From the NCBI RefSeq assembly GCF_031127875.1, contig NZ_JARXIA010000002.1, positions 62,001 to 126,000 of the forward strand: a stretch of 64,000 nucleotides of DNA, read 5' to 3'. A program made the translations under genes and the position numbers. This DNA comes from Pelagicoccus sp. SDUM812005 (lineage in GTDB: Bacteria; Verrucomicrobiota; Verrucomicrobiia; Opitutales; Opitutaceae). The notes below the pieces were generated by a model. It did no database searches, was not told where the DNA came from, and saw only the letters and a list, made by a program, of their open reading frames with translations. This document shows, piece by piece, positions 37,702-48,036 of the stretch; within the stretch, counting starts at the first letter, position 1, and each line of letters starts with the position of its first letter.

Positions 37702-37780
37702 TATGCCTGCCCCCAAGCCCTCAGTATCATTGCTAATCATTTGCGGGAATTCTGCATTCTGGTTATGGTTTGATGCCTCC

Positions 37781-40700
37781 ATGCCCCCGATACCCCCGAT
37801 CATAGTCCGACTCGCCCTCCTCGCCTCGATCGCGCTCGGCTGCGCCGCCCAGGCGACCGAAACCTACGCCCCCACCTACCCCGACCCCAACCTGGAAAAA
37901 TGGCGCTGGAGCGAGTTCCCCTTTCTCGACGGCCGAGGCGTCACCTGCATGACCGAGCACCCCGACAACGTCTACTGGTTCGGCGGAGCGGGCAGCCTCT
38001 ACCGATACGACGGCTACGAGGTTGAAGAATACGGCCCCTCCAGCGGATACCTCGGCTCCGCCACCCTCTGCCTCGCCAAATCGCCGGACGGCGCCCTCTA
38101 CGCGGGCAGCGACCAAGGCCTTTTCCGACTGGAAGGCGAGAGTTGGCAAGCCATCGTCGCCAGCGAACGACCCGGCAGGATCCAAGTCCGAGACATCGAC
38201 TTCTTCCCGGACGGCACCGTCCTCGTCAGCATCGGCGAACGGGAGGAGAATATCGAGACCCCAAGCAACTGGCACGGACTTGCCCTCCTGCGCGGCGACA
38301 CCCTTACCCTGCTCGGTGACACCGGAGCAAGCGACCTTACCGAAGGAATCCAATCCAACGTCTCGCTCCAAGCCAGTCCCCCGCCACCAGAGGCCTGTAT
38401 CCAAATGCTGGATTTCAGCCGACTCAACAGCACGGCCAGCCTCATTGCATCCGACGGTCTCGTTTACGCCACAGTCACCGAAAACAACGGCGACGCCAAC
38501 AAGATCGCCCGCTTCCGCTACCAAGCCGAAAGCCAAGACCTGCAGCTCGTCGACGCCTTCAGTCGGGAACACGGGATCAACCTCGACAGCCTTTCCCACG
38601 TAGTCGAAGACCAGCAAGGCAAGGTCTGGGCAACCAGCAACAGCGCCGTAAACGGCGTTTGCCGCTGGGACGGCACCAGCTGGGAACATATCGACATCTC
38701 CGACCACTTTCCCGGCTCCGAGCTATTCTACTACTCCTACGCGGCGAGCGACGGATCCATCTGGATCGACGGATTCGGCCAATACTTCGTCTACAAATCC
38801 GGAACCTGGTCGAAGTACGCCCCGCCCGACATCCCCCTCACCACCAACAACCGCATCAACTTCTTCGAAAGCGCCGACGGAGCCATGTGGCTCATCGCCA
38901 CCAACTCGAAAGTCTTCCGCCTCGACTACTCCAACCGCACCTGGACTACCCTCGAAGGTCTCTCCTACCAACTCGAAACCGATACCGGCGCGAAATACTA
39001 CCTCAGCCTCGAAGGGAGCATCGTCGCGGAAGAGTCCGGCAGCTGGACAACCTACGATAGCCGCAACGGCCTTATCGACACTCCCATCAAGCTCTTCCTA
39101 AGCTCCTACGGCGAAATCTGGGCCCTCGGCAGCCACCGCGGAGTCGCAGCCCTCGCCTATCAGACCGACTCCGGGCAATGGAAGCAGCTACGATTCCCAG
39201 ATCTCTCCTGGTCCTTCGACCACCGAGCCGCCTTCGAAGACAAGTCCGGACGTCTCTACTTCGCCGCCGCCGTCGACGCAGCGCCCGAACAAAGCCCCGG
39301 CATCATACGCTTTAACCGGCCGAAGCAGGACAAGTCAGACCAGACCCTCATCACCCCCAAACCTCCCGTCGCCAACAAAGGCAGCTACTACGGCATCGGC
39401 CAGGATCACCAGGGTCGCATCTGGGTCGGCGGCCGTCCCGTGGTCACCATCGAGAACAACAGCCTCCAACCCGCCTCCCAATTCAGCGCCCTGTCCACCT
39501 ACGTAGACTACATCTTCAGCTCGCCCGACCAAGAGCTCTGGCTGGTTACCCGAGACCAAGGCATCCTACAAATATCCGCAGAGCAAGAGCGCTGGCACTC
39601 CATCGACACCGGCCTCCCCTCCCACTCCCTCATCTCCGGTTTTTCCGACAACGCTCAAGACGCTTGGATCGCTCTCTCCGACCAGATAGCCCATTACGAC
39701 GGAACGTCTTGGAGCACTTTCATGCCCCTCCCCTACGCCAACTACACCCGGGCCGGAATATCCCTGCAAAAAGGCTCCCGCGACGAACTCCACATCTCCC
39801 AGGTCAGCAACTCCTGGACACGGCGGGCCCTGTCCCCCATTCCCGCGACCACTCTTACCGTACCCTTCCAAACCCTCACCTTTCACAACGACAAGCGAGG
39901 TCCCATCATCAAGATCACTCACTTCGAATCGGAGGTCAGCGAAACGGGAAATACCTCGATCACCTGGCAAGCGATCGACTACCTCGAAAGCACGCCGCGG
40001 TCCGACATCGAATACTCCTACCAACTCGACGACCAGGCCTGGACCCCCTTTCGCAAAAACGACCACCAGCTTTTCCTCGGCCTCCCCTCGGGGCCGCACC
40101 AGCTCAAAGTCAGAGCCCGCGACAACAGCTTCAATACCTCACCCGCCATCGCCGCCATCACCTTCAACGTCGCCTTCCCCGTCTGGCGCAAACTGTGGTT
40201 CCAGGCGACGTTCTCCAGCCTCGTCCTCCTCGTAGTTTTCCTCTGGATACTCACCATAAAGCGCAGTACCCGCCTCGCTTTCCTCAACGAAGACCTTTCG
40301 ATCGCCAACCGACAACTGCAACTCCAGCAAAAGACCATCGAATCCCAAAACGAGTCCCTCCTGCAAAACAAGGCCCACCTCGAGGAACGCGTGCTCGAAA
40401 GGACGAAGGACCTGGAGAAAGCCAAGCTCCGAGCCGAAGAGTCCGACCGGCTGAAGTCCGCCTTCCTCTCCAACGTATCCCACGAGATCCGCACTCCCAT
40501 GAACGCCATCATCGGCTTCTCCGAGCTGCTCATGCACGACCCTCCGGAGGACAAGGAAAAGCAGAGCTTCATCCGAACCATCCAAACCAGCGGCAAGGAC
40601 CTGCTCAACATCATCGACGACATCATCGAGGTCTCCAAAATCGAATCCGAGGCCATCGACATCGAGTACGAAGACGTCTCCGTTGCATGGATACTCAGCC

Positions 40701-41572
40701 AGACCCAGGACACTTTCCGAGGAGTGCTCGCCAGACTGGGCAAGGAAAACCTCAAACTGCTCGTCGATACCGAAGGCCTGCCCGACGGCTGCCTGCTTAG
40801 AACCGACCCCAGCCGCCTCAAGCAAGTCCTCAAAAACCTCATCAGCAACGCCATAAAGTTCACCCCCGACGGCTTCATCCAGCTGAGGTGCGGACCCACT
40901 CCCAGCCGAGACGCCCTCCAATTCGCCGTCGAAGACTCGGGCTTCGGCATCAAAGAAGAACAGCTCTCCCTCATCTTCGAACGCTTCCGCAAAGCCGACC
41001 CCAACAAAGGCCATACCTACCGAGGCAGCGGGCTCGGCCTGCCCATCAGCCAAAACCTCGTCCAAAAGCTCGGCGGAAAGATCCACGTCGATTCCGAACC
41101 CGGAAAAGGCAGCACCTTCTCCTTCACCCTCCCCTGGGACGGACGCACCGAAAACGGCAGCGAAGCCCGCCTCTCGCCGCCCCAAGCAGTAGGCCCCGAA
41201 CAAAAGCCCCCGAAAAATCCCCTCCTGCTCGTCGAGGACGAAGAAGCGAACGTCACCCTCATCGCTAGAATGCTCGATCGCCTCGCCCTCCCCTTCGTCC
41301 ACGCCGCCACCGCCGAGCGCGCGATCGAGCTCTGCCAACGCAAGACCTTCTCCGCCGTCCTCATGGATATCAAGCTGCCCGATATGCAGGGAGACGTAGC
41401 AGCCCTGCGCATTCGAGGAATCGACCCCCACCTCCCCATCATCTCCCAAACGGCCTACGCCATGTCCGGAGAACGCGAGCGCTTCAGCCAAGCCCCCTTC
41501 ACCGCCTACCTGTCCAAGCCGCTTACCCTCGAAAACCTCGCCGCCGCTCTCCACGCCTGCATGCGAGCGTGA
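37781..41572 (+). CDS. Propeller-type hybrid histidine kinase
   Basis: A 1263-residue sensor when started at the ATG at 37781, which gives a signal peptide ([15 protein letters not shown]). The periplasmic part (about 25-725) has Reg_prop-like blades ([24 protein letters not shown]), followed by a Y_Y_Y-type Ig domain (about 730-800). A membrane helix lies at about 805-827 and a coiled coil to about 885. Then come HisKA with His901 ([17 protein letters not shown]), an HATPase ([17 protein letters not shown]) and a receiver with Asp1196 (VLMDIKLPD). There is no HTH domain, unlike Bacteroides polysaccharide sensors. The phosphorelay exit is unknown; the distant HPt protein (10201) and response regulator (9454) are candidates. 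Confidence 0.92.
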
Positions 41573-42456: not shown

Positions 42457-42891
42457 ATGGAGCTCACCAAATTTTCGGACTACAGCCTGAGGATGCTCCT
42501 CTACCTCGGGCTCAATCCGGACCGCTTGGTTTCCCTCGTGGAAATCGCCGACGCCTACTCCATCTCCCGAAACCATCTGGTCAAAATCTCGAAGCGCCTC
42601 GCCCAACTGGACCTCGTCCAAGCCACCCGGGGCAAAGGCGGAGGAATCCAGCTCGCCAAACCGCCCGCCGAAATAAACATTGGCGCCGTCGTCAGAAGCA
42701 CCGAAGGCCATAGCCCGCTCGTCGAATGCTTCGACCCAGGCAGCAACACCTGCTGCATTATAAAGAGCTGCTCCCTCAAAGGCGCCCTCAAGAAAGCCGA
42801 AAACGCCTTCTACGCCGAACTCGACCAGCACACCCTGCAAAGCCTCCTCAAAAACCGCAAAGGCCTCAGTCTCGCATTTGCGAAAGATTGA
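42457..42891 (+). CDS. nsrR: Rrf2-family regulator, NsrR-like
   Basis: A 144-residue repressor. The winged helix starts MELTKFSDYSLRMLLYLG, with recognition region SISRNHLVKISKRLAQLDLV and wing TRGKGGGIQLAKP. Iron-sulfur cysteines are Cys91, Cys99/Cys100 and Cys105 in ECFDPGSNTCCIIKSC, matching NsrR, the [4Fe-4S]/[2Fe-2S] nitric oxide sensor. NO destroys the cluster and relieves repression. It lies 31 bp after hisF and is followed by a 254-bp gap with an NsrR-like palindrome and then redox genes, including a globin, which supports the name. The doubled cysteine at 99/100 is unusual. Confidence 0.88.
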   Translation: MELTKFSDYSLRMLLYLGLNPDRLVSLVEIADAYSISRNHLVKISKRLAQLDLVQATRGKGGGIQLAKPPAEINIGAVVRSTEGHSPLVECFDPGSNTCCIIKSCSLKGALKKAENAFYAELDQHTLQSLLKNRKGLSLAFAKD

Positions 42892-43070: not shown

Positions 43071-43093
43071 AAGTAATATTTGAAATACTTCTT
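43071..43093. promoter_or_regulatory. Candidate NsrR operator
   Basis: A 23-bp near-palindrome of 11-1-11 form with arms starting AAG and ending ATTT / AAAT and CTT; 9 of 11 arm pairs match. It has the layout of the enterobacterial NsrR site (AAG-N4-ATTT-N-AAAT-N4-CTT). It lies 53 bp upstream of the 43146 start, in the only gap between nsrR and the redox genes. A promoter nearby is not clearly resolved; TTGAGA 42992-42997 with TAGTTA 43015-43020 (17 bp apart) is one candidate. Confidence 0.6.
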
Positions 43094-43145: not shown

Positions 43146-43742
43146 ATGAAAAAGAAAAACATCCTCTACGCAGCCTTCCTCGGAGGAACGCTGCTGGTTT
43201 CCTCGCTATTCCTAACCGCTTGCGGCGACAGCGCCAACGCCGCAACCGGAGGCATCTCGCCTCAAAAAATGGCGGACGGGCTTCACCTCGTGATGAAGTC
43301 GGACCGCACCATCTACACCCGCAACGTCGTCAATCGCCTCGTCAAACAGGACAAGGTAATCAATGCCTCCGAGCATTGGGCCGACGAAAAGGCCCTGCCT
43401 CTCCCCGCCCAGATGTTTCGCATGGGGGCGGAGATGGTAGCTAAGGAACCCAACGCCGGCTTCTCCTACTCGCTGCAATCGATCTGGCCCATCAACGCCC
43501 AAAACGCTCCCAAAACCGAAGCCGAAAAAGCCGGGCTTCAATACGTAATTGATAATCCAGGACAGAACTACTACGCCGAAGAAGAGCTCGGCGGCGTCAA
43601 GTACTTCACCGGAGTCTACGCCGATACCGGAGTCGCCGCCGCCTGCGTCGACTGCCACAACGAACACAAAGACTCTCCCAAAACCGACTTCAAACTCGGC
43701 GACGTCATGGGCGGCGTCGTGATCCGAATTCCCTTGGACTAG
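43146..43742 (+). CDS. DUF3365-like c-type heme lipoprotein
   Basis: A 198-residue lipoprotein with lipobox LTAC (Cys26) after a long hydrophobic run. It has one covalent heme site, CVDCH near residue 164. The overall pattern (FRMGAEMVAKEPNAGFSYSLQSIWPINAQNAPKTEAE, GVKYFTGVYADTGVAAACVDCHN) matches the DUF3365/Tll0287-like family of heme-binding PAS-like sensors and electron carriers. It is the first gene behind the NsrR-like operator. Role inferred: periplasmic electron carrier or NO/heme sensor of the cluster. Confidence 0.82.
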   Translation: MKKKNILYAAFLGGTLLVSSLFLTACGDSANAATGGISPQKMADGLHLVMKSDRTIYTRNVVNRLVKQDKVINASEHWADEKALPLPAQMFRMGAEMVAKEPNAGFSYSLQSIWPINAQNAPKTEAEKAGLQYVIDNPGQNYYAEEELGGVKYFTGVYADTGVAAACVDCHNEHKDSPKTDFKLGDVMGGVVIRIPLD

Positions 43743-43812: not shown

Positions 43813-44196
43813 ATGAACGCCAACTGGAAGCATAGCCTCGCTATCCTTGCTCTCGCCCTCGTCGCCTGCGGCGAGAAGCCCTCCGCCAAGTCCCCCGCAG
43901 CCTTCGACCCGACCTCCGTTCCTCTCGACGATCCCGACCTCGCTGCCGGCCAACAAACCTGGTCCAGCACCTGCGCGACCTGCCACCTCTCCGGACTCAC
44001 TGGAGCCCCCATCATCGGCAACAAAACCGCTTGGGCTCCCCGCATCGCCCAAGGCCTGGAAACCCTCTACGACCACGCCCTCAACGGCTTCATCGGTCCC
44101 GAATACACCGAGATGCCCCCCAAGGGCGGTTTCGCGGAACTGACCGATGAGCAAGTAAAGCAAGCTGTCCGCTTCATGACTCACCTCAGCCAATAA
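43813..44196 (+). CDS. Monoheme class I cytochrome c lipoprotein
   Basis: A 127-residue protein with a lipoprotein signal (LALVAC, Cys18) and one CATCH heme site near residue 57. The second axial ligand is likely the Met of TEMPPKGGF. It has the ordinary small class I cytochrome c shape (about 80 residues after the linker) and would act in the periplasm as an electron carrier. It lies 70 bp after the DUF3365-like gene and 29 bp before the globin gene, on the same strand. Confidence 0.88.
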   Translation: MNANWKHSLAILALALVACGEKPSAKSPAAFDPTSVPLDDPDLAAGQQTWSSTCATCHLSGLTGAPIIGNKTAWAPRIAQGLETLYDHALNGFIGPEYTEMPPKGGFAELTDEQVKQAVRFMTHLSQ

Positions 44197-44225: not shown

Positions 44226-44642
44226 ATGACAGAAAGACAAATCGAACTCGTTCAAACCTCCTGGGAAAAGTGTATCCCAATCGCCGATACGGCCGCAGCC
44301 ATCTTCTACGCGAAGCTCTTCGAGCTAGACCCGAGCCTCCGACCTCTCTTCACCAGCGACATCAAGGAACAAGGCAAGAAGCTGATGACCATGATCACAA
44401 CCGCCGTGCGAGGCCTCAACAACCTGGAAGGCATCGTCGGCGCCGTTCAGGCCATGGGCAAGCGCCACTCGGGCTACGGTGTCAAGGACCAGCACTACGA
44501 AACCGTAGGGACCGCCCTAATCTGGACGCTCGGACAAGGGCTAGGCGACGACTTCACCGACGAAACCAAGGAAGCGTGGATCGCCACCTACACGCTTCTC
44601 GCCACCACCATGAAAGACGCCGCCAACGAAAACGCTGCGTAA
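44226..44642 (+). CDS. Single-domain globin
   Basis: A 138-residue globin of the Vitreoscilla haemoglobin/flavohaemoglobin-head type, without a reductase domain. The start is MTERQIELVQTSWEKCIPIA; the proximal His lies in MGKRHSGYGV or the following DQHYETVG, as in bacterial globins. Such proteins bind O2 and NO and with a partner reductase oxidise NO to nitrate. Here the fused flavoprotein encoded next could serve as the electron source, but that is inference. It fits the NsrR context. Confidence 0.88.
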   Translation: MTERQIELVQTSWEKCIPIADTAAAIFYAKLFELDPSLRPLFTSDIKEQGKKLMTMITTAVRGLNNLEGIVGAVQAMGKRHSGYGVKDQHYETVGTALIWTLGQGLGDDFTDETKEAWIATYTLLATTMKDAANENAA

Positions 44643-44735: not shown

Positions 44736-46694
44736 TTGAACGAATCGAATTCAGGTACAGCGCGGCAACGCGTCATCGTTGTCGGCAATGGCATGGTCTC
44801 CCATCGCTTCTGCGAGGAACTATCCAAGAAAGCGAACGCGCAAGACCTAGAAGTCACAATATTCGGCGAGGAACCACATCCTGCCTACGACCGCGTCCAC
44901 CTCACCGACTACTTCAAGCGACCTTCCCCCGAAACGCTCAGCTTAGGATCCGTCGTTTTGTATTCTAAAAGGGGATACACCCTCTCCTGCGGAAATCGCA
45001 TCGTCTCCATCGACCGGCTGAAAAAGCGCGTTACCGACTCCCAAGGGGAAACGTACCCCTACGATAAACTCGTCCTCGCCACCGGATCCTATCCCTTCGT
45101 CCCGCCTATCGAGGGAAATTCAAGCCCCGGCGTGTTCGTCTACCGCACCCTCGCGGACGCCGACTCCATCATCCGACACTGCCGCGGAAAAAGCTCAGCT
45201 GTCGTCCTCGGAGGAGGCTTGCTCGGCCTAGAAGCCGCCAACGCTCTCAAGGAGCTAGGGCTCAACGCATCGGTCGTAGAGTTCGCCAACGGCTTGATGC
45301 CTCGCCAGCTAAACCAAGACGCCTCTCGCGTACTTGAAGAACAAATACGCGACCTAGGAGTCACGCCCCTAGTCGGCAAGGCTGCCGAAAAAATAGAAAC
45401 CTCCGCCGACGGCTTGATCGTCTCCTTCAACGACGGCTCGAAACTCCTGACCGATATCCTCATCGTCGCCACCGGAGTCCGCCCGGCCGATCGGCTCGCC
45501 CGCGAAGCGGACCTCAGCCTCGGTGCCCGCGGCGGCATCATCGTAAACGACCAGCTGCAAACCTCGGACCCCTCCATCTACGCCATCGGAGAATGCGCCC
45601 TGCACCGCGGCCAGATCTACGGATTCGTAGCTCCCGGCTTCCAGATGGCAGAGGCCCTCGCCGACCAGCTATGCGGCGGGCAAACGAACTACGAAGGCTC
45701 CGACCTCTCCTGCCGCCTCAAGCTTCTCGGCATCGAGGTGAGCACCTTCGGCGACTACCTCGGAGAAGGACGCACCCTCATCCACCGCAGCCCCAAGACC
45801 TACCGCATGATCGTCCTCAAGCGGGATTGCTACGTCGGCGGCACCGTCGTCGGAGACTGGGACCAGACCCACCAGCTCCAGCTCGCGATCAAGGAAGCGC
45901 GCTTCATGACGCCTTCCGAACAAGCCGCCTTCGAAAAGGACGGCAACCTGCCGGCTGGAGACGCCCTTAGCGACTGGCCCAGCAACGCCATCATCTGCAA
46001 TTGCACGCAAACCACCAAAGGCGCCCTCTCCGCCTGCATCTCCTCTGGATGTAAAACCGTCGCCGACCTCGGCCAGCGTACCGGAGCGGGAAACGTCTGC
46101 GGCTCCTGCCGTCCGCTGCTCGCCCAGCTCTGCGGCGAGTCCGGCGAGGAAGCCGCCTACCGCCCCAAAGGCCGCAAAGCCCTATGGATCGCCGCAGCGC
46201 TCGCGCTCGCTACCTGCATCGCCTTTCTCAGCCTCTCCGCATTCCCGGAACCGCAAAGCGTGCAAACCCGCTACTTCCAGCTTTCGAAGCTCTGGCACGA
46301 CTCCCTCTACAAGCAAATTTCAGGCTTCACCATGGCAGGCCTTTCCTTGGTCGCCCTGCTCCTCTCCGCACGCAAGCGCCTGCCGACCTTCCGCTTCGCC
46401 AACTACGGCTCGTGGCGGGCCCTGCACGGCATAATCGGCAGCCTTTGCCTGCTCGCTCTCGTGGCCCACACCGGACTGGACTTCGGAAAAAACCTGAACC
46501 TCTGGCTCATGAGCTGCTTCGTCGGCCTAAACCTCGTCGGCGCCCTCGCCGGCCTGAGCATCGCGATGGAAGACAGGTTCAGCGGCCCGTGGGCTCGCCG
46601 TATCCGTTCCTTGGTTACGAAGGCCCATATCCTCTTCTTCTGGCCCTATCCCGTCCTGCTAGGATTCCACATCTACAAAGCCTACGCCTACTAG
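44736..46694 (+). CDS. NirB-like NADH/FAD/[2Fe-2S] module fused to a diheme b membrane module
   Basis: A 652-residue protein with a TTG start. Residues 1-465 match the first half of nitrite reductase large subunit NirB: FAD motif VIVVGNGMVSHRF, EEPHPAYDRVHL, NAD motif VVLGGGLLGLEAANAL, AIGECALHRG, and a BFD-like [2Fe-2S] site with Cys421, Cys423, Cys455 and Cys458. The sulfite-reductase half of NirB is missing. In its place are about five membrane helices with two H-X13-H helices: His564/His578 and His631/His645. That is the bis-heme pattern of ferric reductase/NADPH oxidase proteins. It should move electrons from cytosolic NADH to the periplasmic face. The decaheme-class cytochrome gene follows after 1 bp. 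Confidence 0.9.
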   Translation: MNESNSGTARQRVIVVGNGMVSHRFCEELSKKANAQDLEVTIFGEEPHPAYDRVHLTDYFKRPSPETLSLGSVVLYSKRGYTLSCGNRIVSIDRLKKRVTDSQGETYPYDKLVLATGSYPFVPPIEGNSSPGVFVYRTLADADSIIRHCRGKSSAVVLGGGLLGLEAANALKELGLNASVVEFANGLMPRQLNQDASRVLEEQIRDLGVTPLVGKAAEKIETSADGLIVSFNDGSKLLTDILIVATGVRPADRLAREADLSLGARGGIIVNDQLQTSDPSIYAIGECALHRGQIYGFVAPGFQMAEALADQLCGGQTNYEGSDLSCRLKLLGIEVSTFGDYLGEGRTLIHRSPKTYRMIVLKRDCYVGGTVVGDWDQTHQLQLAIKEARFMTPSEQAAFEKDGNLPAGDALSDWPSNAIICNCTQTTKGALSACISSGCKTVADLGQRTGAGNVCGSCRPLLAQLCGESGEEAAYRPKGRKALWIAAALALATCIAFLSLSAFPEPQSVQTRYFQLSKLWHDSLYKQISGFTMAGLSLVALLLSARKRLPTFRFANYGSWRALHGIIGSLCLLALVAHTGLDFGKNLNLWLMSCFVGLNLVGALAGLSIAMEDRFSGPWARRIRSLVTKAHILFFWPYPVLLGFHIYKAYAY

Positions 46695-46695
46695 C

Positions 46696-48036
46696 ATGAA
46701 CCGAAAAAAGCTCCAATGGATCCTGGCTGCACTCACGCCCCTGTGGCTGACCTTCCACTTCCTCGCATCCATCGACGGAGAAAAGCGCCATGCCTTCATG
46801 CCGGACCAAGCCTCCCACGGACACCACCAAATCGAACTCCAGTGCTCCGTCTGCCACACCGAGAACATGGGCGTGAAACACGACGCCTGCGCCAGCTGCC
46901 ACCAAGAGGAACTCGACCGCGTCGCCGACTCCCATCCCATCACCAAATTCCTCGACCCGCGCAACGCCGACCGCGTCGCCATCCTCGACGCCCGCAAATG
47001 CGTAAGCTGCCACGTCGAACACCAGCCCGACCAAACCGACTCCATGGGCGTCACCCTCCCCACCGACTACTGCTACTTCTGCCACCAAGACGTCGCTGAG
47101 GAACGCCCCACCCACTTAGGCCTGCCCTTCGACAGCTGCTCCACCTCCGGCTGCCACAACTTCCACGACAACACCGCCCTCTACGAAGACTTCCTCGAGA
47201 AGCACCTGGACGAACCGGCCTTCAAGCTCGATCCCCAGCTCCCCCAGCGCCAGATCTACCGGAACTGGGCCGAGCAAAACGGTCGCCAGCCCCTCGCCCT
47301 CGCCGAACGGGACGCCCCTTCCACCGCCTCCTACTCCCAAGACATCGCCTTCGAATGGTCCACCTCCAGCCACGCCCAAGCCGGCGTCAACTGCATGGAC
47401 TGCCACCAAGCTGCGGACTCCAACGCTTGGGTGGAGAAAACGAACCTCGCCTCCTGCCAGAGCTGCCACGACTACGAGGCCGAGACCTTCCTGCAAAGCC
47501 GCCACGGTATGAGGTTGGCCCAAGGCCTCTCTCCCATGACTCCCGCCCAAGCCCGCCTGCCCATGCATGCCGGAGCCGCCCACAAGGAACTCAGCTGCAC
47601 CTCCTGCCACAGCGACCACAGCTTCGACACCCAGTTCGCAGCCGTCGACGCCTGCGTAGCCTGCCACGACGACTCGCACACTCGCGCCTACAAGGACTCC
47701 AAGCACTTCCAGCTCTGGATGGCCGAAGCCCAAGGCAAGGCCGCCAGCGGCACCGGCGTAAGCTGCGCCACCTGCCACCTCCCTCGCATGGAAGTCACCG
47801 AGTTCGGCGAAGCCGTGACCAAAGTCCTGCACAACCAAAACGACGTGCTCCGCCCCAACGAAAAGATGATCCGCCCCGTTTGCATCCAGTGCCACGGAGT
47901 CGGCTTCTCCATCGACGCCTTGGCGGACCCCCATCTGCTCGATAACAACTTCCAAGGTTTACCAAGCGCCCACGTCGAAAGCATCGAAATGGTAATCGAA
48001 AAACTCAACCGCGTCGCCGCAGAACGGGCCAAGTAA
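46696..48036 (+). CDS. Membrane-anchored multiheme c-type cytochrome (about 11 hemes)
   Basis: A 446-residue protein with one N-terminal membrane helix (about 6-24) left uncleaved or serving as the signal. I count ten CXXCH sites (CSVCH, CASCH, CVSCH, CYFCH, CMDCH, CQSCH, CTSCH, CVACH, CATCH, CIQCH) and one CX4CH (CSTSGCH), all in the periplasmic part. There is no CXXCK site of NrfA type, and no obvious HAO-type crosslink tyrosine motif can be named. It begins 1 bp after the flavo-b protein, so the two are translationally coupled. Likely role: electron acceptor of the b module and possible N-oxide reductase. Confidence 0.92.
   Translation: MNRKKLQWILAALTPLWLTFHFLASIDGEKRHAFMPDQASHGHHQIELQCSVCHTENMGVKHDACASCHQEELDRVADSHPITKFLDPRNADRVAILDARKCVSCHVEHQPDQTDSMGVTLPTDYCYFCHQDVAEERPTHLGLPFDSCSTSGCHNFHDNTALYEDFLEKHLDEPAFKLDPQLPQRQIYRNWAEQNGRQPLALAERDAPSTASYSQDIAFEWSTSSHAQAGVNCMDCHQAADSNAWVEKTNLASCQSCHDYEAETFLQSRHGMRLAQGLSPMTPAQARLPMHAGAAHKELSCTSCHSDHSFDTQFAAVDACVACHDDSHTRAYKDSKHFQLWMAEAQGKAASGTGVSCATCHLPRMEVTEFGEAVTKVLHNQNDVLRPNEKMIRPVCIQCHGVGFSIDALADPHLLDNNFQGLPSAHVESIEMVIEKLNRVAAERAK

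Follow-up and report, generated by a model that had tools for sequence, protein, structure and literature searches.

Six consecutive genes on the forward strand of the 64-kb stretch of Pelagicoccus sp. SDUM812005 DNA that was analyzed (the window) read, in order, as an NsrR-like regulator of the Rrf2 family (42457..42891; profile matches and Cys 91, 99, 100, and 105), a Tll0287-like (DUF3365) monoheme c protein that begins with a lipobox-like sequence (TLL; 43146..43742), a small, presumably periplasmic cytochrome c (CYC; 43813..44196), a single-domain globin akin to the flavohaemoglobin heme domain (GLB; 44226..44642), a fusion protein that we term FUS (44736..46694), and an undecaheme cytochrome that we term DECA (46696..48036); TLL, CYC, and GLB were assigned from profile matches. 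The same order occurs in Verrucomicrobiae bacterium DG1235 (L020), whose FUS is 76.5% identical to that of the window. Upstream of the cluster, a 1289-aa open reading frame (37703-41572) that adjoins a HisF-like gene ends in a region resembling a histidine kinase and receiver.

Domain matches, conservation, and a predicted structure agree in dividing FUS, a protein of 652 aa, into a NirB-type NADH/FAD dehydrogenase half, a BFD-type [2Fe-2S] domain, and a five-helix membrane domain with two histidine pairs. The start codon is TTG, with an in-frame TAA 21 bp 5' of it; the next in-frame ATG, at 44793 (residue 20), lies within the FAD motif. The FAD/NAD(P)-binding Pyr_redox_2 domain spans residues 12 to 291 (44769..45608; E = 1.8e-54), and a profile match and cysteine conservation place the Fer2_BFD domain at residues 419 to 465 (45990..46130), with C421, C423, C455, and C458. 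The NirB profile (TIGR02374) agrees with both, aligning positions 2 to 472 of its 794 with FUS residues 14 to 473 (E = 3.9e-139), and an initial, sequence-only reading that had proposed a NirB-like FAD/NAD pair followed by these four cluster cysteines was correct. Over this half, FUS has the FAD, NAD, and BFD [2Fe-2S] parts that define NirB; unlike NirB, it has no Pfam match to the siroheme/4Fe-4S NIR_SIR half and carries the membrane domain in its place, and its score is 465 bits against the NirB cut-off of 578. The organism separately encodes a full-length NirB on another contig (C35). FUS is a variant built on the known electron-input half of NirB and fused to a predicted diheme cytochrome-b module, and it carries a warning for annotation: genes of this type score highly as "nitrite reductase NirB" despite the missing nitrite-reducing half. 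When FUS was placed in a tree together with five full-length NirB proteins, it did not form a NirB-free clade under either rooting, a result compatible with one origin of the fusion or with several.

The membrane domain (residues 480 to 651; 46173..46688) was delimited from residue positions, conservation, and predicted helices. An AlphaFold2 model computed from a 76-row alignment (mean pLDDT, 91.6; pTM, 0.72) places five helices here, at residues 480-499, 523-547, 557-579, 587-610, and 618-635/637-651, the fifth being kinked; the third contains H564 and H578, and the fifth contains H631 in its first segment and H645 in its second. The proposals that about five membrane helices had replaced the sulfite-reductase half and that they carried two H-X13-H pairs (564/578 and 631/645) are both borne out by this model. 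If R546-K547-R548, which follow helix 2, are taken as cytoplasmic under the positive-inside rule, the cytoplasmic side would hold H564 and H631, and the periplasmic side would hold H578 and H645. In ferric reductases, NADPH oxidases, and MsrQ, helices with H-X13-H spacing bind stacked b hemes, through which electrons pass from pyridine nucleotide to the outside. FUS shares with this family (PF01794) a histidine pair with X13 spacing in each of two membrane helices and the expectation of stacked b hemes but differs in having five helices, another flavin domain, and a periplasmic multiheme partner, and its score falls short of the PF01794 gathering score. A place within the ferric reductase/NADPH oxidase family, suggested at the outset by the histidine spacing, is unsupported: a PF01794 match at E values of ≤1 is absent from the window protein and is weak in the 6 of 76 membrane halves that have one (best, 0.0027).

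Past residue 473, the window protein matches no Pfam family at cut-off, and a search of NCBIfam with its last 148 residues gave nothing at E values of ≤0.1; the best weak match of its membrane half is to DUF4405 (PF14358), at 16.7 bits against a gathering cut-off of 26.7, and cytochrome b561 gives no match at E values of ≤1. Across the membrane halves of the 76 members, matches at E values of ≤1 were made to DUF4405 in 41 (best, 1.6e-4), to cytochrome b561 in 22 (best, 9.3e-4), to DUF4079 in 8, and to Ferric_reduct (PF01794) in the 6 already mentioned, and no NCBIfam family was matched in more than 4. These four Pfam families are of the diheme cytochrome-b type, so that a diheme membrane cytochrome is a fair reading of this half and, in our judgment, the probable one. 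DUF4405 and cytochrome b561 are the commonest weak matches, yet members of these families are, to our knowledge, usually linked to quinones or cytochromes and not fused to NirB, and the window protein lies below the cut-off of the one and is unmatched by the other. Searches of solved structures with the membrane half returned no match, and Foldseek with the whole FUS model returned flavoproteins only among the top 50 matches listed, in which the membrane half was not represented. PF01794 was also matched weakly (E = 0.037 and 0.48) in two frames, 674 and 653 aa long, which themselves look like FUS genes. In profile-profile comparison, the membrane half scored 0.4% against eight PF01794 proteins and 0.8% against cytochrome b561, values that are compatible with distant kinship because the method failed to link two known diheme families, PF01794 and PF01292, to each other (0.48%).

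When the last 199 residues of FUS were used in a plain homology search against 387 genomes of the phylum, 11 genomes gave a match; after two with short 20-bit hits (L018 and L019) were left out, the window protein and eight relatives, 36.8 to 43.5% identical to it, remained. All four membrane histidines and all four cluster cysteines are present in these nine sequences. A wider scan recovered 192 relatives, and the larger set used below consists of the window and the best 80 of these 192, whose records are titled Verrucomicrobia, Lentisphaerae, Planctomycetes, and Gamma-, Beta-, and Alphaproteobacteria, among others, and include one Nitrospirota and one Poribacteria metagenome-assembled genome; FUS is widespread, in bacteria of several phyla. 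In these 81 sequences, H564, H578, and H631 are invariant, as are C421, C423, C455, and C458, and H645 is present in 80; the counts for H645, C455, and C458 are partly selected because the patterns of the wider scan contained them, whereas the nine-sequence set is free of that bias. The histidines are conserved among homologues in both sets, as the diheme proposal implied. Among the best 80 relatives, 76 align to FUS from residue 37 or earlier through residue 652, and the other four (L035, L050, L063, and L096) are without its first 198 to 315 residues; three of these four lie at the end of a contig. For alignment, a set (A2) of 75 loci plus the window was retained, from which four open reading frames running off their contigs and the incomplete L096 were left out.

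The ATG of DECA lies 2 bases past the last base of FUS. From its motifs and its structural model, the 446-aa product is predicted to be an N-terminally anchored, presumably periplasmic undecaheme c-type cytochrome, with 10 CXXCH motifs and one motif of the form C148-X4-C153-H154 (47137-47157 of the window); the modeled N-terminal helix (residues 3 to 26) fits such an anchored, periplasmic location. A relative of DECA follows FUS on the same strand at 80 of the best 80 loci, within 50 bases at 51, overlapping by called starts at 23, and further away at 6 (maximum, 392 bases). For alignment of these relatives (set A3), 56 of the 80 were kept and 24 were removed on visual inspection, chiefly because they were truncated or their starts were over-long or doubtful. 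The CX4CH motif occurs in 80 of the 81 sequences from the window and the best 80 loci: 76 combine it with 10 CXXCH motifs, three with nine, and one with six. Counting CXXCH alone misses this heme; the exceptional sequence, without CX4CH, carries 11 CXXCH motifs. Eleven further histidines of DECA are present in at least 77 of 80 sequences and H170 in 75 of 81 in this set, enough for bis-His ligation at all hemes, so that DECA may only carry electrons.

The CXXCK catalytic heme motif that would mark an NrfA- or ONR-type enzyme is present in none of the 81. DECA resembles NrfA, the octaheme nitrite reductases, and the HAO family in short profile matches to NrfA and eight-heme nitrite reductases (best E values, 6.6e-10 to 2.2e-7) and in two structural matches; it differs from them in its 11 hemes, its CX4CH heme, the lack of CXXCK, and its N-terminal anchor. 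Multiheme motifs can align by convergence, and we treated all such profile matches as weak. The two structural matches, both to HAO-family proteins (6h5l, E = 1.2e-3; 6t5e, E = 0.014), were the only Foldseek results at a probability of 1; none reached an E value of 0.001, and TM-scores were 0.24 to 0.29. DECA may be the terminal reductase itself or just a carrier.

At the 81 loci (the window and the best 80 of 192), the undecaheme gene is present at all, a Tll0287-like gene at at least 78, a globin at at least 50, a small cytochrome c at at least 38, NrtB-like and NrtA-like genes at at least 28 and 27, and a NasT-like gene at at least 16; an NrtA- or NasT-like gene is present at at least 32, and neither label occurs in the available flanks of 49. 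These are lower bounds because contigs are cut, and the labels come from home-made HMMs, of which "NrtC" can be any ABC ATPase and "NasT" can catch other response regulators (L099 has several); Pfam scans of example loci confirmed NMT1_2 (the NrtA type), ANTAR, and Alginate_exp. A recent preprint (2026; PMC12889525) describes, in the parts drawn on here, a stand-alone Tll0287-like member with a Cys axial ligand that looks redox active and binds NO weakly, and a signaling member without that Cys that binds NO tightly; its authors give stand-alone domains redox roles generally, which speaks against TLL as a sensor. In 62 of 76 operon Tll0287-like members, no candidate axial Cys occurs beyond residue 45 apart from those of CXXCH, which would, if this one pair of proteins in PMC12889525 is representative, allow NO binding, although a Cys-to-Ala variant in the same preprint still lost NO fast.

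The product of the first gene scores 125 bits against 30 for the Rrf2 domain and 130 bits against a cut-off of 182 for the NCBIfam NsrR equivalog; the RirA model scores nearly as high, at 126.5 bits. NsrR holds its Fe-S cluster with a triad of cysteines, and the protein has both the Rrf2 domain and such a triad (91, 99/100, and 105). Between this gene and TLL, the palindrome AAGTAATATTTGAAATACTTCTT (43071..43093, forward strand) agrees with 18 of the 22 specified positions of AAGATGYATTTNAAATRCATCTT, which we take to be the NsrR consensus; it is the top-scoring such site in the 64-kb window, and when the intergenic stretch was shuffled 2,000 times by mononucleotide, no shuffle scored as high as 18. 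At the aligned position, L020 also has an 18/22 site; related loci totaling 1.18 Mb hold three sites of ≥18/22, this one included. Of 75 loci, 3 have a score of ≥17 upstream of FUS, whereas 100 dinucleotide shuffles gave a mean of 0.12 and never more than 1; two other sites of ≥17 lie inside FUS (L083) and after a Tll0287-like gene (L057). The last of these, at L057 10694-10716 just 3' of the gene, agrees at 20 of 22 positions and is the highest in the 1.18 Mb. With so few high-scoring sites, a minority of FUS operons look NO controlled, and an NsrR-like gene is adjacent at only 2 of the 81 loci of the window and the best 80 relatives, namely, the window and L020. An ANTAR leader motif was found at one locus in each group, the 16 NasT loci and the 59 without NasT (shuffles, 0.07 and 0.06), and a promoter and terminator scan stayed at background level. 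A half-site of the NsrR consensus is given in PMC5320621, which also reports that NsrR binds E. coli nrfA and that Nrf can reduce NO.

The conserved histidine pairs, the helix layout, and the presence of DECA at 80 of the best 80 loci support the initial suggestion of a transmembrane NADH-to-periplasm route distinct from the classical respiratory enzymes, and a quinone-independent conduit from NADH through FAD, a [2Fe-2S] cluster, and two b hemes to an undecaheme cytochrome is, as a prediction from sequence and models, well supported. We propose this order because it uses every conserved part. On the cytoplasmic side of FUS, NADH would reduce FAD and then the BFD [2Fe-2S] cluster, which would pass electrons to an inner b heme (probably held by H564 and H631) and on to an outer one (probably H578 and H645); the outer heme would deliver them to membrane-anchored DECA in the periplasm, if flow runs in this direction and DECA is the acceptor. 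DECA, with the Tll0287-like protein and the small cytochrome c, would then reduce a nitrogen oxide or feed its reduction, while the cytoplasmic globin would remove NO inside the cell, and the operon as a whole would protect against reactive nitrogen arising from nitrate and nitrite assimilation. Control would fall to NsrR, responding to NO, in some lineages and probably to NasT, responding to nitrate or nitrite, in others. The NsrR-like gene with its box-like site and the NrtA- and NasT-like genes point to nitrogen oxides, and it is from these neighbors that we infer nitric oxide and/or nitrite as the substrate. An NADH-fed FUS-DECA conduit for periplasmic nitrite or NO reduction, giving protection from nitrogen oxides around nitrate assimilation, is the explanation that we favor and on balance believe. 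A more specific version, in which FUS is a respiratory-like, quinone-independent NADH:undecaheme-cytochrome oxidoreductase that spans the membrane by its own hemes and drives a new periplasmic multiheme NO/nitrite reductase, coupled to nitrate assimilation in several phyla, is put forward tentatively, as a proposition that we would sooner doubt than assert.

Of the nitrogen genes elsewhere in the same genomes, NasA counts for the favored reading and siroheme reductases count against it. A NasA relative was found in all 25 chosen FUS genomes (best E values of 5.9e-100 or lower), as were siroheme reductases, a family that does not separate nitrite from sulfite types. Among the 387 genomes of the phylum, a NasA match at E values of ≤1e-100, with the NasA of the window genome as the query, was made in 5 of the 9 genomes with FUS and in 47 of the remaining 378 (Fisher's P = 0.003); at most two candidates were scored per genome, and some passing frames of 900 to 1200 aa may be other molybdopterin enzymes, so that we regard the association as modest and do not take the four misses to prove that NasA is absent. 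An NADH-fed periplasmic assimilatory nitrite (or hydroxylamine) reductase, supplying ammonium for growth rather than detoxification, would account for the linkage to NrtABC-like and NasT-like genes and for the NrfA-type and eight-heme profile matches of DECA. We think it unlikely, since siroheme reductases are present in 25 of 25 genomes, an ABC importer would draw the substrate out of the periplasm, and the globin and the NsrR-box-like sites fit NO better. A role for DECA as the sole nitrite reductase of these genomes was rejected on the same siroheme count. The window's genome also carries, on contig C35 (L100, 3328-16391), a cluster of NasA-like, full NirB, NirD-like, NirA-like, flavoprotein, and porin-like genes, with two candidate siroheme nitrite reductases; NirD, NirA, and the flavoprotein were named from sequence appearance.

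A second alternative, with FUS-DECA as a wire to an outer-membrane conduit for extracellular or mineral electron transfer and DECA as a carrier of the MtrA/DmsE kind, strikes us as improbable. DECA does match the DmsE-type decaheme model TIGR03508 (E = 1.5e-11), at 44.2 bits against a cut-off of 192.2, and PDB chain 6r2q_A (E = 2.9e-8), presumably MtrA, and two relatives come from records labeled "Biocath" and "metal_reducer" (L042 and L058); against these decaheme carriers, it has one more heme, a membrane anchor, and a score far below the TIGR03508 cut-off. In the shared neighbor clusters inspected, no gene drew attention as an outer-membrane cytochrome, and no MtrB was noticed near DECA; a porin-like gene is present at at least 17 of the 81 loci of the window and the best 80 relatives, being of the Alginate_exp type on the one scanned. 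More doubtful still is that FUS works in reverse, from periplasmic oxidation to NAD+, or serves mainly as a globin reductase with its membrane part as an anchor: the HAO-family structural matches of DECA, a globin neighbor at at least 50 of the 81 loci, and a single-domain globin for which NorW is cited, in the part of PMC4724949 used here, as having a minor role lean that way, yet the membrane histidines are conserved in 80 or 81 of 81 sequences and DECA stands at every one of these loci, 31 of which have no globin label (some contigs are cut).

If the favored reading, a conduit from NADH to periplasmic nitrite or NO reduction, is right, many bacteria have a direct, quinone-free route from NADH to the periplasm made from half of a known enzyme, its two companions, an eleven-heme cytochrome and a Tll0287-like heme protein, gain a suggested function, and the operon shows how nitrate assimilators may cope with self-made nitric oxide or nitrite. 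No description of the FUS fusion or its operon was found in the open-licence literature searched, and the "possible nitrite reductase complex" of "Ca. Tenderia" (PMC5371394) may, as far as that account goes, be the FUS operon. A close known arrangement is that of Bradyrhizobium japonicum, in which NasST governs nitrate assimilation together with a globin and a reductase (PMC4724949). The narK-bjgb-flp-nasC genes share with the FUS operon NasST control, a globin with an NAD(P)H flavoprotein, and the tie to nitrate assimilation; in contrast, the parts of PMC4724949 drawn on here do not give Flp as a membrane heme protein and mention no multiheme cytochrome. Six of the 31 loci without a globin label (L048, L066, L067, L077, L078, and L097) have genes resembling a truncated haemoglobin and a ferredoxin-type reductase, both named from sequence appearance, near FUS in place of the usual globin.
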